Origin: Propionibacteriaceae bacterium | GTDB lineage: Bacteria; Actinomycetota; Actinomycetes; Propionibacteriales; Propionibacteriaceae | Direction: 5' to 3' | Length of the DNA: 33,420 nucleotides | Assembly: GCA_024636075.1 (NCBI GenBank) | Contig: JAGXHS010000122.1 | Coordinates: 1 to 33,420 of the forward strand | Notes under the pieces: generated by a model | Seen by the model: the letters and a program-made list of their open reading frames with translations, nothing else | The model's database searches: none | What the model was told of the DNA's origin: nothing | Position numbers and translations under genes: made by a program | Shown here: positions 9,003 through 14,159 of the stretch, piece by piece | Layout: each line of letters begins with the position of its first letter | Numbering within the stretch: the first letter of the stretch is position 1

Positions 9003-9234
9003 GAAGCAGACGATCCCGAACGCTGTGCCGATGCCACGTCTCGCAGGAACTGCGCCGGCACGTCACCCCCGTGGACCATCGCCTCGGGGAAGAAATGTGC
9101 CGTGTTGGCCCGCCACGCCCGCAACAAACGCCTCCACGACGCGATCGATCTGCTCGCTGAGTACCAGCGCCGGCGCCCGGGCCGTCTACGTCGAATCCAC
9201 CGCTCGGGCCGAGCGCCAAACCGCAGCAGTTTGA
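9003..9234 (+). pseudogene. Degenerate IS110-family transposase C-terminal fragment (frameshifted)
   Basis: Frame A reads EADDPERCADATSRRNCAGTSPPWTIASGKKCAVLARHARNKRLHDAIDLLA; an overlapping frame continues CSLSTSAGARAVYVESTARAER. Together they follow the IS110 C-terminal pattern (DDPxRF..GTAPVT.ASGK..V.ARHARN.RL.DA...WAF.ALS.SPGARA.YD). Confidence 0.65.
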
Positions 9235-9374
9235 CACGTTGGACCCTGGAATGTCTGGCTGAACCGCTCCCGACCGCCTCCTGGACGCATATCAATATCG
9301 AATTGTCAAGAGTCTTTGGGTGGCTCAAGACGCCGCCGACTAGGGGAGTCGCTGCTAAATCCCGGCCTTGGGCA

Positions 9375-9383
9375 TGATACAAT
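9375..9383 (+). promoter_or_regulatory. Extended -10 promoter element of carD
   Basis: TGATACAAT (TGn + TACAAT), 26 bp upstream of the carD ATG; leader contains GAAAGGGG Shine-Dalgarno. Confidence 0.55.
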
Positions 9384-9409
9384 GGAATCTGCGAAAGGGG
9401 CTGCAGAGT

Positions 9410-9895
9410 ATGACTTTTGAAGTCGGCGAGACGGTTGTGTATCCGAATCATGGGGCCGCGGTTATCGAGGACATCGAAACCCGGCAGATCAAGGGAGAGG
9501 ATCAACTTTACCTGGTGCTGCGCATCATTGGCCAGAGTGACTTGGTGGTGAGGGTACCCGCGTGCAACCTCGATCTGGTCGGTGTGCGCGACGTGGTTGA
9601 TGCAGATGGTCTGGAGAAGGTCTTCGGCGTACTGCGGGAAACGCAGGTGGAGGAACCCACGAACTGGTCGCGGCGTTACAAGGCGAATCTGGAGAAGCTG
9701 CACAGCGGCAACGTGATGAAGGTTGCCGAAGTGGTTCGCGATCTCTGGCGGCGCGAGAAGGACCGCGGGTTGTCCGCTGGCGAGAAGCGGATGCTGGCCA
9801 AGGCGCGCCAGATCCTGGTCTCCGAGCTGGCGCTGGCCGAGAAGGTCGAGGAAGAGCGCGCCGAGGTCCTGCTGGACGAGGTGCTCGCCAGCTGA
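9410..9895 (+). CDS. carD: CarD-family RNA polymerase-binding transcriptional regulator
   Basis: [72 protein letters not shown]. Confidence 0.96.
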
Positions 9896-9939
9896 CTCGC
9901 GCAGGTCGCCAACTTTGCGACCACCAGGAAATGAACTCG

Positions 9940-9980
9940 AATCGGGGCCGACCATCCAACGGGTGGTCGGCCCCGATTTT
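9940..9980 (+). terminator. Intrinsic terminator downstream of carD
   Basis: AATCGGGGCCGACCATCC-AAC-GGGTGGTCGGCCCCGATTTT, long stem (one G-T) followed by T run. Confidence 0.9.
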
Positions 9981-10160
9981 GTGTCAATCATGCTCATCGT
10001 GACCCTCGTGCCCGCAGACGTGAAGAATGTCGTGCTGTCCGCCACGGGCGGCGAGGTGCACCCGGTGGGCGCGGTGGGTGTTCCCGCGGTGCTGTTCTCC
10101 AGATTGATCACCTCACCGGTCGCTGTGATCATCGCCTACTTCGCCTCCATCCTGATCTGA
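9981..10160 (+). pseudogene. C-terminal remnant of PTS glucitol/sorbitol permease IIB/IIC component (SrlE/GutE-like)
   Basis: Frame encodes ...GAVGVPAVLFSRLITSPVAVIIAYFASILI*, aligning with the remembered SrlE C-terminus ([30 protein letters not shown]); sits directly upstream of the SrlB-like gene; no plausible RBS. Confidence 0.65.
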
Positions 10161-10240
10161 AACGGCAAAGTAGTTCGCACACACTGGCAATGGCCTTCAG
10201 CGGTGGTGCTGGAGGCTGGAACACCTAGGAGCGACACGCC

Positions 10241-10615
10241 ATGACCAAGACACTGTGGGAAAGCGAGATCACTCATCTCGGCGAGGACTCCGGCGAATTC
10301 ATCGCCGCGGGTTGTTTCATCCTTTTCGCAGAGCCGGTGTCCCCGGCACTGGCGAAGATGAGCCTGGTACACCCGAAGGGTGATGCACTGACGTCCCAAC
10401 TTCAGGCGGGTGACCACTTCGTGGTCGGCGAGCAGGCGGTGGTGCTGGACGAGATCGGTGCGCTCGCCCAGAAGAATCTGACCGAGCTCGGGCACGTCGT
10501 CATCTACGTCAACGCGCCCGGCCAGGAGCTGCGGCCGGGTGCGGTCAAGGCCACCGCGGAGGCAATTCCGACCCCGAAGGAAGGCGACCGCATCGCCTTC
10601 GTCCGTCCTGAGTGA
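10241..10615 (+). CDS. PTS glucitol/sorbitol transporter subunit IIA
   Basis: WESEITHLGEDSGEFIAAGCFILFAEPVSPALAKMSLVHPKGD...ELGHVVIYVNAPGQELRPGAVKA; PTSIIA_gutA pattern, conserved His in SLVH. Confidence 0.85.
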   Translation: MTKTLWESEITHLGEDSGEFIAAGCFILFAEPVSPALAKMSLVHPKGDALTSQLQAGDHFVVGEQAVVLDEIGALAQKNLTELGHVVIYVNAPGQELRPGAVKATAEAIPTPKEGDRIAFVRPE

Positions 10616-10830
10616 GCTGACACTGGGTGGGAGTTCCCACCAGAGCTGCGGAACGGTTCTCCGGTCCGAACAATGCGCTGGTCACCGGCCGGGGCAAGGG
10701 TTGGCTGGGCATTTTCCCTACTGACACCGTCAATCACCGCAGCCGAGGGTTACAGTTGAGGCAGCCAGATTGACGGTGATGGCCGAACAGTGCGCAACAC
10801 CATTGCTGGCGGGGGACAGGGGGGGTCCAG

Positions 10831-11796
10831 GTGCCTGCAGCGCGATCCAGTGACATTCTCGTGCGGGCGGCCCGGATGTACTACTTGGAGGGAATGAGCC
10901 AGTCAGCGGTAGCCGTTGCTCTCGGTGTCTCTCGCTCCAACGTGTCACGGGTGCTCGCCTCGGCTCGGGAACAGGGGGTGGTGGAGATCAGGATCCACGA
11001 TCCCGGAAGCCGATTCGCAGCGGATTCGACGTTGGCTGACCAGCTGCAGCAGGCATTCCCCGTCACACGAGCGGTCGTGGTCGAGCCGAGCCGGGGAGTG
11101 AGCGCTGTTGAAGCGGTTGCGTTCGCAGCGGCCGAGTACGTCGAGGAACACCTCAGTGACATCCACCGATTGGGACTCAGCTGGGGCAGCACGGTGGGAA
11201 AGTTCGTCGAGGCCATCGAGCCCAAACATCTCCGGGCGGACTTCGCGGTGGTGCCCTTGATGGGTGGCATGCCCACTCTGGACACCCGGCCTGCAGGCAA
11301 CGTGACCATCCAGGCGCTCGCCCGCAAATGTGGCGTGTCAGCGCAGCGGTTGTACGCACCAGCGGTGGTCGAGTCTCGTCAGACGCATGCCGCGCTGATC
11401 AGGGAATCTGCGATAGCCGCCGCCCTGCAGCGGGCTGCGGAGGTCGACTTCGCCGTCGTCGGTATCGGGGCTGCTGGTGTGCACTCGTCGCGGCACATCC
11501 TGGAGGCGATGCGACTCAGTGACGACGAGCTGCGCCTCGTGGCAGCCAGCGAGCTGGGCGGTGATGTCTGCGGTCGATTTGTCGATGTGTGGGGAGCACC
11601 TCTCGGGCCCCCCACATCGGAGCGCGTCATCGGGATCAGTTTCCAGCAGCTGCTGGACCTACCCCGGGTACTCGGCATGGCCGCCGGCCAGGAGAAGGCC
11701 CAGGGCGTGCTCTCGGTGTTGCGGAGTGGGGTGCTGGACATCGTCGTGCTGGACGCCACGGTGGCGCGCGAGGTGTTTGCTCGAGTGAATACCTGA
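10831..11796 (+). CDS. SorC-family (DeoR-like) sugar-binding transcriptional regulator
   Basis: N-terminal HTH (AARMYYLEGMSQSAVAVALGVSRSNVSRVLASAREQGVVEIRI); sugar-binding domain GLSWGSTV, VVGIGA, GRFVD. Confidence 0.93.
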   Translation: MPAARSSDILVRAARMYYLEGMSQSAVAVALGVSRSNVSRVLASAREQGVVEIRIHDPGSRFAADSTLADQLQQAFPVTRAVVVEPSRGVSAVEAVAFAAAEYVEEHLSDIHRLGLSWGSTVGKFVEAIEPKHLRADFAVVPLMGGMPTLDTRPAGNVTIQALARKCGVSAQRLYAPAVVESRQTHAALIRESAIAAALQRAAEVDFAVVGIGAAGVHSSRHILEAMRLSDDELRLVAASELGGDVCGRFVDVWGAPLGPPTSERVIGISFQQLLDLPRVLGMAAGQEKAQGVLSVLRSGVLDIVVLDATVAREVFARVNT

Positions 11797-11837
11797 CGGC
11801 AGTCAGCAGACGCTGACACGGCGTGCCGGTTGACGGC

Positions 11838-12374
11838 TCAGGTCGCGGACCCGTGCTCGATGCGGTCCTCGTTCGGTCGCGCCAGCCTGTCGAAGCGCTC
11901 CACCAACTCAGCAGGTGTGGACAACCGCGCCAGCAGACGCTGTGACAAGTCAGTTCGCTGCATGATGGCCAGCAACCGGCCCAGCAGCGGCACGTGCTGG
12001 CTGGGATCGTCCACGCAGAGCAGCAGGACCAGCCCGACCTGCACCGAACTACCGGAACCGCCCATCTCCTGGAACACCAGTGGACACTCCGGTACCAGAG
12101 CGCCCAACGCCATCTTCAACACATGACCACTGTAGGCGTGCGGAATGGCGATCGGGAGTGGGGTCGGGAGCCCCGTGGGATAGCGCTGCTCACGCTCCCA
12201 CAAGGCGTCTTCGTAGCTCGCACGGGCGAAGCCTTGTTGCACTGCGGCCGCACCCAGGTGGCGGACAGCCTGTTCGGCCATCGCCACTCCGGGGGGTCTT
12301 ATGAAGGTCAGCGCGGGATCCAGTCCCATGGTGAGATCTGGTCGCGACGAGCCCTCGCTGGAACTGCCACTCAT
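11838..12374 (-). CDS. PTS sugar transporter subunit IIA (galactitol/fructose type)
   Basis: LPIAIPHAYSGHV active-site His context; VQVGLVLLLCVDDPSQHVPLLGRLLAIM. Confidence 0.88.
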   Translation of the reverse strand: MSGSSSEGSSRPDLTMGLDPALTFIRPPGVAMAEQAVRHLGAAAVQQGFARASYEDALWEREQRYPTGLPTPLPIAIPHAYSGHVLKMALGALVPECPLVFQEMGGSGSSVQVGLVLLLCVDDPSQHVPLLGRLLAIMQRTDLSQRLLARLSTPAELVERFDRLARPNEDRIEHGSAT

Positions 12375-12661
12375 GTCGGCTGTGCGGTGTTCTGCTCTGC
12401 GGAGGCTGCACCTGCGGCATAGAGTCCACCACCGATGGCGATCGCGGAATCGAGACCGATGTAGAACTTCCGAGGGGGGAAGCGCTTCTGGATGAAGGTC
12501 CTGGCCGCGTCAGAGACCGGAACAAGGTCCTCCATCAGGATCGCCACCATTCGCAGCGACTTGCCGAACTTCTGCCCGAGCGCCAATGCGTAGATGGCGA
12601 TCATGACGGGCAGCACGACCGCTGCTCCCAGATCGTTCAGGTATACAGATACTGCTTCCAT
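12371..12661 (-). pseudogene. Truncated PTS galactitol permease IIC (GatC-like), internally deleted
   Basis: 96 aa ORF: first ~37 aa match the GatC N-terminus (LGAAVVLPVMIAIYALALGQKFGKSLR), the next part matches the C-terminal half (LVPVSDAARTFIQKRFPPRKFYIGLDSAIAIGG); full GatC is ~420-450 aa. Confidence 0.75.
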
Positions 12662-12711
12662 GCGGGCCCTCCTTGCCCTCGTGATGGATTGATGGGAACT
12701 ACGCCGGGGAG

Positions 12712-12987
12712 CTACTGCAGATGCGATACGACGTCGTCGAGTGCCTGGTCCCGACCAATTCCGGTCAGGAACGGCATTCCGGGCACGACGGGGACCGTGA
12801 TCGATTTCGGGACCTCAGTGGTGGACACGATGACGTCAACAGCGGGGTTGCCCGACAACAGATCCATCACCTTGCCCTGACTGACATCGACATCGATTCC
12901 GTGGTAGAGGCAATGCTCGCGGATGGCTGAGGCGACTATCGTCGATGTGGCGACTCCAGTGCCGCAAATGACGAAGACCTTTTTCAT
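12712..12987 (-). CDS. PTS galactitol-type transporter subunit IIB
   Basis: MKKVFVICGTGVATSTIVASAIREHCLYHGIDVDV: P-loop-like active-site Cys signature of GatB-type IIB. Confidence 0.92.
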   Translation of the reverse strand: MKKVFVICGTGVATSTIVASAIREHCLYHGIDVDVSQGKVMDLLSGNPAVDVIVSTTEVPKSITVPVVPGMPFLTGIGRDQALDDVVSHLQ

Positions 12988-13059
12988 GGGTCCCTGCTTC
13001 CTGGTTGTGGATCAACCCGCGGCGAGGTGCTGCGGCTGCGTGATTCAGGTTCTCAACGA

Positions 13060-13201
13060 TCAGCCGACCGCATCGAGAATTGCGGACATTCGCGCGAGCA
13101 GATCCGCCCCGGGGGAACCGTCGGCGACCCGTCGGTCGACCGTCAGGCCGGCGTGCATGGTAGAGCAGCTTGTGCTCCAGGACCAGTACCGGACTGGGAT
13201 C
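13060..13201 (-). pseudogene. Fused remnant of 2-oxoacid dehydrogenase complex genes (E1-beta fragment then E2 C-terminal fragment)
   Basis: Minus strand 13201-13160 reads [14 protein letters not shown] (E1-beta motif DPxPVxFLEHKxLY); 13158-13060 in another frame reads MHAGLTVDRRVADGSPGADLLARMSAILDAVG* (E2 C-terminal DHRVxDG motif with His replaced by Arg). Confidence 0.55.
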
Positions 13202-13370
13202 GCATATAGGTGCATCATATTGTCACTTATGTCGGCGTCACAGGTCTGTGACTTCGATCCGCACAAGAGTTTGGGCAAGAGGGAATGGCCAGCCCGGTCC
13301 GTGGCAGCACAATCGAGAGATCCGGCACCGCCCGCGGTCGAGACGAGTGCTGCGCCGATATACTCCGCTC

Positions 13371-14159
13371 ATGAGCGAACCTATCGTTGCCGTTGTGGTG
13401 GCAGCCGGGCTCGGGGTCCGCTTCGGTGGTTCCGTTCCCAAGCCGGTGAGGTCCATCACCGGCAAGGCTCTCGTCGCGATGTCCATAGAAGCGCTCTCGG
13501 CAGGAGGATGCACCGACGTTGTGCTGGTGATCCCCGGCGGGACGCGTCACCACTTCTCGCCCGCCCTTGCCACCTCGCCGATCGCGGTGACGCTTGCTGA
13601 AGGCGGAGCCACCCGCCAGGAGTCGGTGCGCAACGGTCTGCAGGCAGTACTGGACGACAAGCACCTCAGTCGAGCCAAGGTGGTGCTGGTGCACGACGCC
13701 GTGCGTCCGTTGGTTCCAGCCCGCGTCGTCGGAGACGTGATTGACGCTGTCCGCGGTGGCGCTGTGGCGGTGACCCCCGTCGTCTCGGTCGTGGACACCA
13801 TCCGCATGGTCGGTGGTGTCACCGGCTCGCAGCTGATCGACCGCAACACGCTGCGTGCAGTGCAGACGCCCCAGGGCTTCGACCTGAAGTGTCTGGTGGA
13901 GAGCCATGATGCGATGACTGCAGCGGGCTGGCAGGCCACCGACGACGTCTCCTGCTGTGAAGGCAATGGTCACCCGGTGACCTTCGTCGAGGGTTCCAGG
14001 CTGGCGATGAAGATCACCGAACCAGCCGATCTGGAGATGGCCAAGGCACTGGTGAAGGTGCATCGAGGGGTCGGGCACCACTCCGGAAAGCGGATTCGCC
14101 GGCACTGGCCAAAGCGGCTGCCGCGGATCGTGATCCAGCGACCCCACCTTGAGCAGTGA
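13371..14159 (+). CDS. ispD: 2-C-methyl-D-erythritol 4-phosphate cytidylyltransferase
   Basis: Start ATG 13371 ([20 protein letters not shown]); [24 protein letters not shown] motifs. Confidence 0.94.

Follow-up and report, generated by a model that had tools for sequence, protein, structure and literature searches.

Probable remnant of a galactitol permease gene, and probable piecemeal erosion of the hexitol-uptake locus around it, in a Propionibacteriaceae bacterium

Why should a gene lying between those for the IIB and IIA subunits of a galactitol-type phosphotransferase system (PTS), the operon partners of the membrane permease GatC (IIC), encode only 96 residues? We address this question for mini-GatC, an open reading frame of 96 codons with an ATG start (12371..12661, minus strand) in a 33,420-nucleotide stretch of a Propionibacteriaceae genome, referred to here as the window. 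The first-pass annotation had described the frame as a GatC reduced to an in-frame fusion of its two ends, and had suggested that it might be either a small membrane protein with a new function or a fossil kept for the sake of coupling to IIA. Our analysis makes it quite probable that mini-GatC is a dead GatC remnant, produced by two, probably three, deletions that kept the frame, and that the surrounding hexitol-uptake locus is eroding by piecemeal deletion.

The derivation of mini-GatC from a galactitol-type IIC is apparent from profile and structural alignments alike. The frame passes the Pfam gathering score for EIIC-GAT (GatC) through two separate stretches (E = 1.7e-7; 31.1 bits against a cut-off of 24.2), and TIGR00827 likewise matches in two stretches (E = 6e-15) at 55.1 bits, below the 542.2 bits set for a full-length subfamily member; the profile alignment that had been proposed as a check thus finds both halves in both families. 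Against the galactitol IIC chain of PDB entry 9u82, residues 6-36 of mini-GatC align with 7-37 and residues 37-78 with 262-303, and in 13 intact homologues the two stretches are separated by 230 codons. As reference we use L061 (467 aa), the closest intact homologue by its N-terminus (which begins METVSAYLNDLGASV, compared with MEAVSVYLNDLGAAV in mini-GatC). In its numbering, the first retained piece (GatC 1-37; 12551..12661, minus strand) carries the start codon and the first transmembrane segment, with 70% identity to L061 over 37 aa and a hydropathy peak of 2.3, and the second (GatC 267-307, with the pattern RMV...GLDSA.A.G; 12431..12553, minus strand) is 83% identical to L033 and 76-80% identical to L061 and L062. 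Six bases before the start codon, a Shine-Dalgarno sequence, AAGGAGG, has been kept (12668..12674, minus strand); a promoter scan returned a single weak site at about chance level. The only other EIIC-GAT-family match in the assembly, on contig C49, looks ascorbate-type, and because about 28% of the genome is missing from the assembly, the absence of a full-length gatC from the genome is unproven. That second match (L001, positions 3-1022) is UlaA-like, has a proline-rich tail, is truncated at the contig end and adjoins a UDP-glucose epimerase-like gene.

How, then, was the gene shortened? The 9u82 and homologue alignments bear out the earlier assignment of residues 1-37 to the start of GatC and of what follows (residues 37-77) to a distant GatC segment, and the junction predicted near 12550 falls at codon 37 (R37; 12551..12553, minus strand), where about 230 codons have been lost relative to L061. 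The description as a fusion of N- and C-terminus holds in that the pieces are joined in frame, but the event was not a simple one: the second piece is internal to GatC, and further junctions follow it. At junction 2 (12431..12445, minus strand), mini-GatC reads LDSAIAIGGGLY, in which a short direct repeat, AIAIG, leads into GGLY (AIAIG|GGLY). In intact proteins, LDSAIA.G stands at residue 307 and AIAIGGGLF follows some 65 codons further on, and it is this second copy, as found in L062, L063 and L033, that the sequence after the junction matches, with a loss of about 65 codons. The match to the second copy was equalled by only 0-3 of 2000 shuffles with L061, L062, L063 and L033, and by 0-1 for AIAIGGGLF of L062, L063 and L033, and was not seen with L040 in the same test. 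The repeat is visible in L062 as GCGATCGC and GCCATCGC at the two copies, which have GC(G/C)ATCGC in common at the DNA level. A third junction is probable from position: of the length difference between L061 and mini-GatC (467-96 = 371 = 230+65+76), 76 codons remain to be accounted for, which places it near residue 81 (about 12419), followed by a residual C-terminal tail (junction and tail at 12374..12421, minus strand). We tried to place the last 15 residues on the GatC tail by sequence, but the match was not significant, the stretch being too low in complexity; the overlap of their stop codon with the start of gatA nonetheless places these residues where the original C-terminus would be. The reading frame is kept at all of the junctions, and neither retained piece contains a frameshift or a stop.

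What remains would hardly serve as a transporter. In comparison with known members of the family (PF03611 EIIC-GAT, TIGR00827, TC 4.A.5), mini-GatC shares both homologous pieces, the IIB and IIA operon setting and the IIC/IIA overlap seen in L061-L064, but has 96 residues against about 460; a complete permease is a multi-helix protein of about 450 aa with V-motif and core domains, whereas mini-GatC has one hydrophobic segment, lacks most of the core domain and is missing about 371 residues relative to L061. UlaA, the model for the AG superfamily, binds its substrate through residues in HP1-HP4, TM4 and TM9, all parts of the core (PMC6048161). Set against these binding elements, the alignments reveal a loss of residues needed for function: mini-GatC still has the first helix and the GLDSA-bearing segment, and nearly all of the substrate-binding core is gone. 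The GLDSA segment probably corresponds to the HP3 Asp region, and would be the only substrate element possibly left. Because it has a single hydrophobic segment and lacks all but one arm of one substrate-coordinating element, the product, if made, would be a single-helix stub unable to bind or move sugar, and transport is not expected.

The feature that has survived most neatly is the link to gatA. As first described, the stop codon of mini-GatC overlaps the IIA start as ATGA (12371..12374, minus strand), the TGA overlapping the ATG of GatA. The same type of overlap (NTGA; GTGA or ATGA) joins gatC to gatA in L061-L064, four relatives from the same order with an intact gene, which makes the arrangement ancestral. 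There is no clear ribosome-binding site before gatA, either in the window or in L061-L064. Termination-reinitiation coupling has been shown for 13 of 14 tested overlapping gene pairs (Huber et al. 2019, PMC6728339). With its ATGA overlap and a downstream gene that shows no clear ribosome-binding site, the mini-GatC/GatA pair resembles these, and it is plausible that GatA translation is coupled to mini-GatC in this way; it differs in that the upstream gene is a remnant.

The damage is not confined to gatC. Members of this family often carry a hexitol locus between CarD and IspD. In L178, L181 and L183 this interval contains, at varying completeness, genes for E1/E2, SrlA, SrlE, GutA, a hexitol dehydrogenase and SorC: L178 and L181 have dehydrogenase E1/E2-type genes, SrlE, GutA, SorC and IspD, with SrlA directly upstream of SrlE in L181 and the hexitol dehydrogenase between GutA and SorC in L178. 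The L040 interval holds E1/E2-type genes, GatB-GatC-GatA and SorC, and the Gat part of the window is inverted relative to it. (L040 carries two SorC-family regulators within this one interval, at 9120-13385, each 47-49% similar to the single one in the window.) In the window the interval is 3.5 kb, and a search of the locus recovered no SrlA, hexitol dehydrogenase or GutM. Of the sorbitol EIIBC (SrlE) there remains an N-terminal 25 aa (residues 19-43) joined in frame to a C-terminal 28 aa (residues 309-336; 9990..10160, plus strand); the pieces match at E = 2e-5 and 3e-9, neither score was reached by any shuffle, and Pfam EIIBC-GUT_C scores over its cut-off. The original SrlE start region is gone, and a terminator-like hairpin of CarD stands in its place; a match of the sequence 5' of 9990 to SrlE was not significant. 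The hairpin itself (9943-9980, plus strand; ATCGGGGCCGACCA...TGGTCGGCCCCGATTTT) is long and GC-rich, has a long loop, lies 3' of CarD and is likely the CarD terminator. Upstream of GatB, where the intact operon of L040 and L061 has the corresponding genes, an E1-beta remnant of 18 aa abuts the last 28 aa of E2, out of frame with each other (13072..13213, minus strand). The out-of-frame E1-beta/E2 fragments and the lost SrlE start argue that the locus is debris rather than design.

Could the deletions instead be artifacts, produced by draft assembly or an amplification chimera from a genome with an intact gatC? The window comes from a single draft assembly of 198 contigs and 71% completeness, the genus is represented by this one genome with no close strain for comparison, and several deletions crowd one 3.5-kb region. 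Against this stand several observations. Across 119 pairs of open reading frames compared with another member of the family (G154), there was one gap of at least 15 aa, in a control that covered 408 kb of the assembly against 1.07 Mb of G154 and can miss short HSPs. Ten window proteins are full length against Pfam, and the junction repeats, at under 10 bases, are too short to mislead an assembler. The neighboring remnants are also unequal (E1-beta 18 aa, E2 28 aa, SrlE 53 aa), as expected if decay had proceeded in steps, and the clustering of deletions in one pathway together with this unequal loss is what decay gives. We therefore regard an artifact as unlikely.

Decay of the locus has not been uniform. 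Its whole genes are the small soluble ones only: a GutA-type (sorbitol) IIA orphaned from its EIIBC (10241..10615, plus strand), a SorC/DeoR-family sugar-responsive regulator (10831..11796, plus strand), a GatA-type IIA with catalytic His79 (11838..12374, minus strand) and a GatB-type IIB with its active-site CGTG Cys (12712..12987, minus strand). In GatA, residues 79-82 (12129-12140, minus strand) lie in the sequence IPHAYS, where homologues have IPHTD or IPHAD, so that the Asp two residues after the catalytic His is replaced by Tyr. GutA is 42-55% identical to a clade of GutA proteins of the family, several of them encoded between CarD and IspD, and no EIIBC partner for it was found in the assembly (no EII-GUT and no other EIIBC-GUT_C).

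This survival of four whole genes, three of them PTS subunits with their active-site His or Cys present, in a genome that also encodes Enzyme I and HPr, raises the prospect of a permease-less regulatory PTS branch in which selection maintains GutA, GatA, GatB and SorC as a phosphorylation-dependent switch that has dispensed with the membrane subunits. Such a branch is compatible with mini-GatC being a remnant, and differs in what it says about the locus. However, if the loss is recent, small genes would have escaped it by chance, the signals that SorC-family regulators are known to sense are sugar phosphates, not PTS phosphorylation, and GatA carries Tyr where its homologues have Asp, two residues after the catalytic His; we think a regulatory branch quite improbable.

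Recent loss is indeed what the divergence of the retained pieces suggests. They are 70% and 76% identical to L061, the same values as between L061 and L062, and GatB is 61% identical in both comparisons (window-L061 and L061-L062). As the divergence of the retained pieces does not exceed that among intact proteins, the gatC deletions are recent on this scale. We looked for relaxed selection on these pieces and could not detect it, and purifying selection likewise cannot be shown; neither frame disruption nor relaxed substitution was found, and although neither is obligatory for deletion alleles, their absence leaves the pseudogene reading short of certain. Of 32 positions invariant in 12 intact relatives, three (F, A and G) are changed in mini-GatC, whereas in a left-one-out control the intact proteins change 0-2 each. 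Retention of the frame at three GatC junctions has a chance of 1/27, and at all within-gene junctions (two or three in GatC, one in SrlE) of 1/27 to 1/81; such consistency is a hint that the frame has been under selection, in GatC at least.

The retained frame also favors a functional small membrane protein, a stub that has taken on a new task such as anchoring GatA/GatB to the membrane or regulating them: the frame is open behind its kept AAGGAGG, its GC3 of 0.73 is coding-like, it encodes one clear transmembrane segment, and GatA and GatB are intact. Nevertheless, we found no positive support for neofunctionalisation. Our searches covered 198 genomes of the family and 397 drawn from the order (partly overlapping), as well as a pattern scan of about 85,000 species, one genome each, which recovered 21 loci, and none of them yielded a second mini-IIC or another member of a short-form IIC family. 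All relatives found are long GatC-like open frames (381-768 aa), the shortest of which lie at contig ends; a join between residues 37 and 267 occurs in none of them, and intact GatC occupies the matching operon position in L061-L064, L040 and L066. The structure prediction for mini-GatC is of low confidence (pLDDT 54, pTM 0.27), and the altered invariant residues also speak against such a protein. Furthermore, with the SrlE start lost and E1-beta/E2 out of frame, deletion at this locus shows no bias toward producing small proteins, and we hold this reading to be very improbable. In a further, combined scenario the translated stub would persist as a partner of GatA/GatB, tethering them to the membrane or acting as a translational leader, within a permease-less branch that now only signals to the neighboring regulator; this too is very improbable.

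We thus return to mini-GatC as a fossil, a reading favored by the homology of both pieces, the lack of a short form in the other genomes searched, the loss of nearly all of the core and the deletion-scarred neighbors of the same pathway. A full-length galactitol-family permease of about 467 aa would have been reduced to the 96-aa stub by two, probably three, in-frame deletions, in a lineage losing its hexitol-uptake locus piecemeal, with the SrlE, E1-beta and E2 scars products of the same process. Chance may account for the survival of the frame and overlapping stop, or they may persist because GatA is translated by ribosomes that have just completed the stub and reinitiate. Bacterial pseudogenes are known to be worn away by deletions once inactivated (Kuo and Ochman 2010, PMC2916853); the window locus resembles them in its erosion, with several genes of one pathway hit together, and differs in that the within-gene deletions keep frame. 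Inactivation of a galactitol permease can be favored, as in E. coli adapting to the mouse gut, where gatC lost function by a 1-bp frameshift insertion (PMC7064181), in contrast to the large in-frame deletions in this actinobacterium. Mini-GatC is a case of ordinary gene decay, save for the neat retention of the frame and of the link to GatA.

For annotators, the case is a warning that a Pfam match above the gathering score can stem from a stub. It also presents an overlapping stop and start that has outlived most of the upstream protein, and that can be used to ask whether coupling constrains the decay of an upstream gene. At least one internal deletion at the locus lies between short repeats. 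Taken as a probable remnant, mini-GatC offers a snapshot of the dismantling of a sugar-uptake locus, in which internal deletions strike the large membrane and enzyme genes first and leave the small soluble subunits and the regulator whole.
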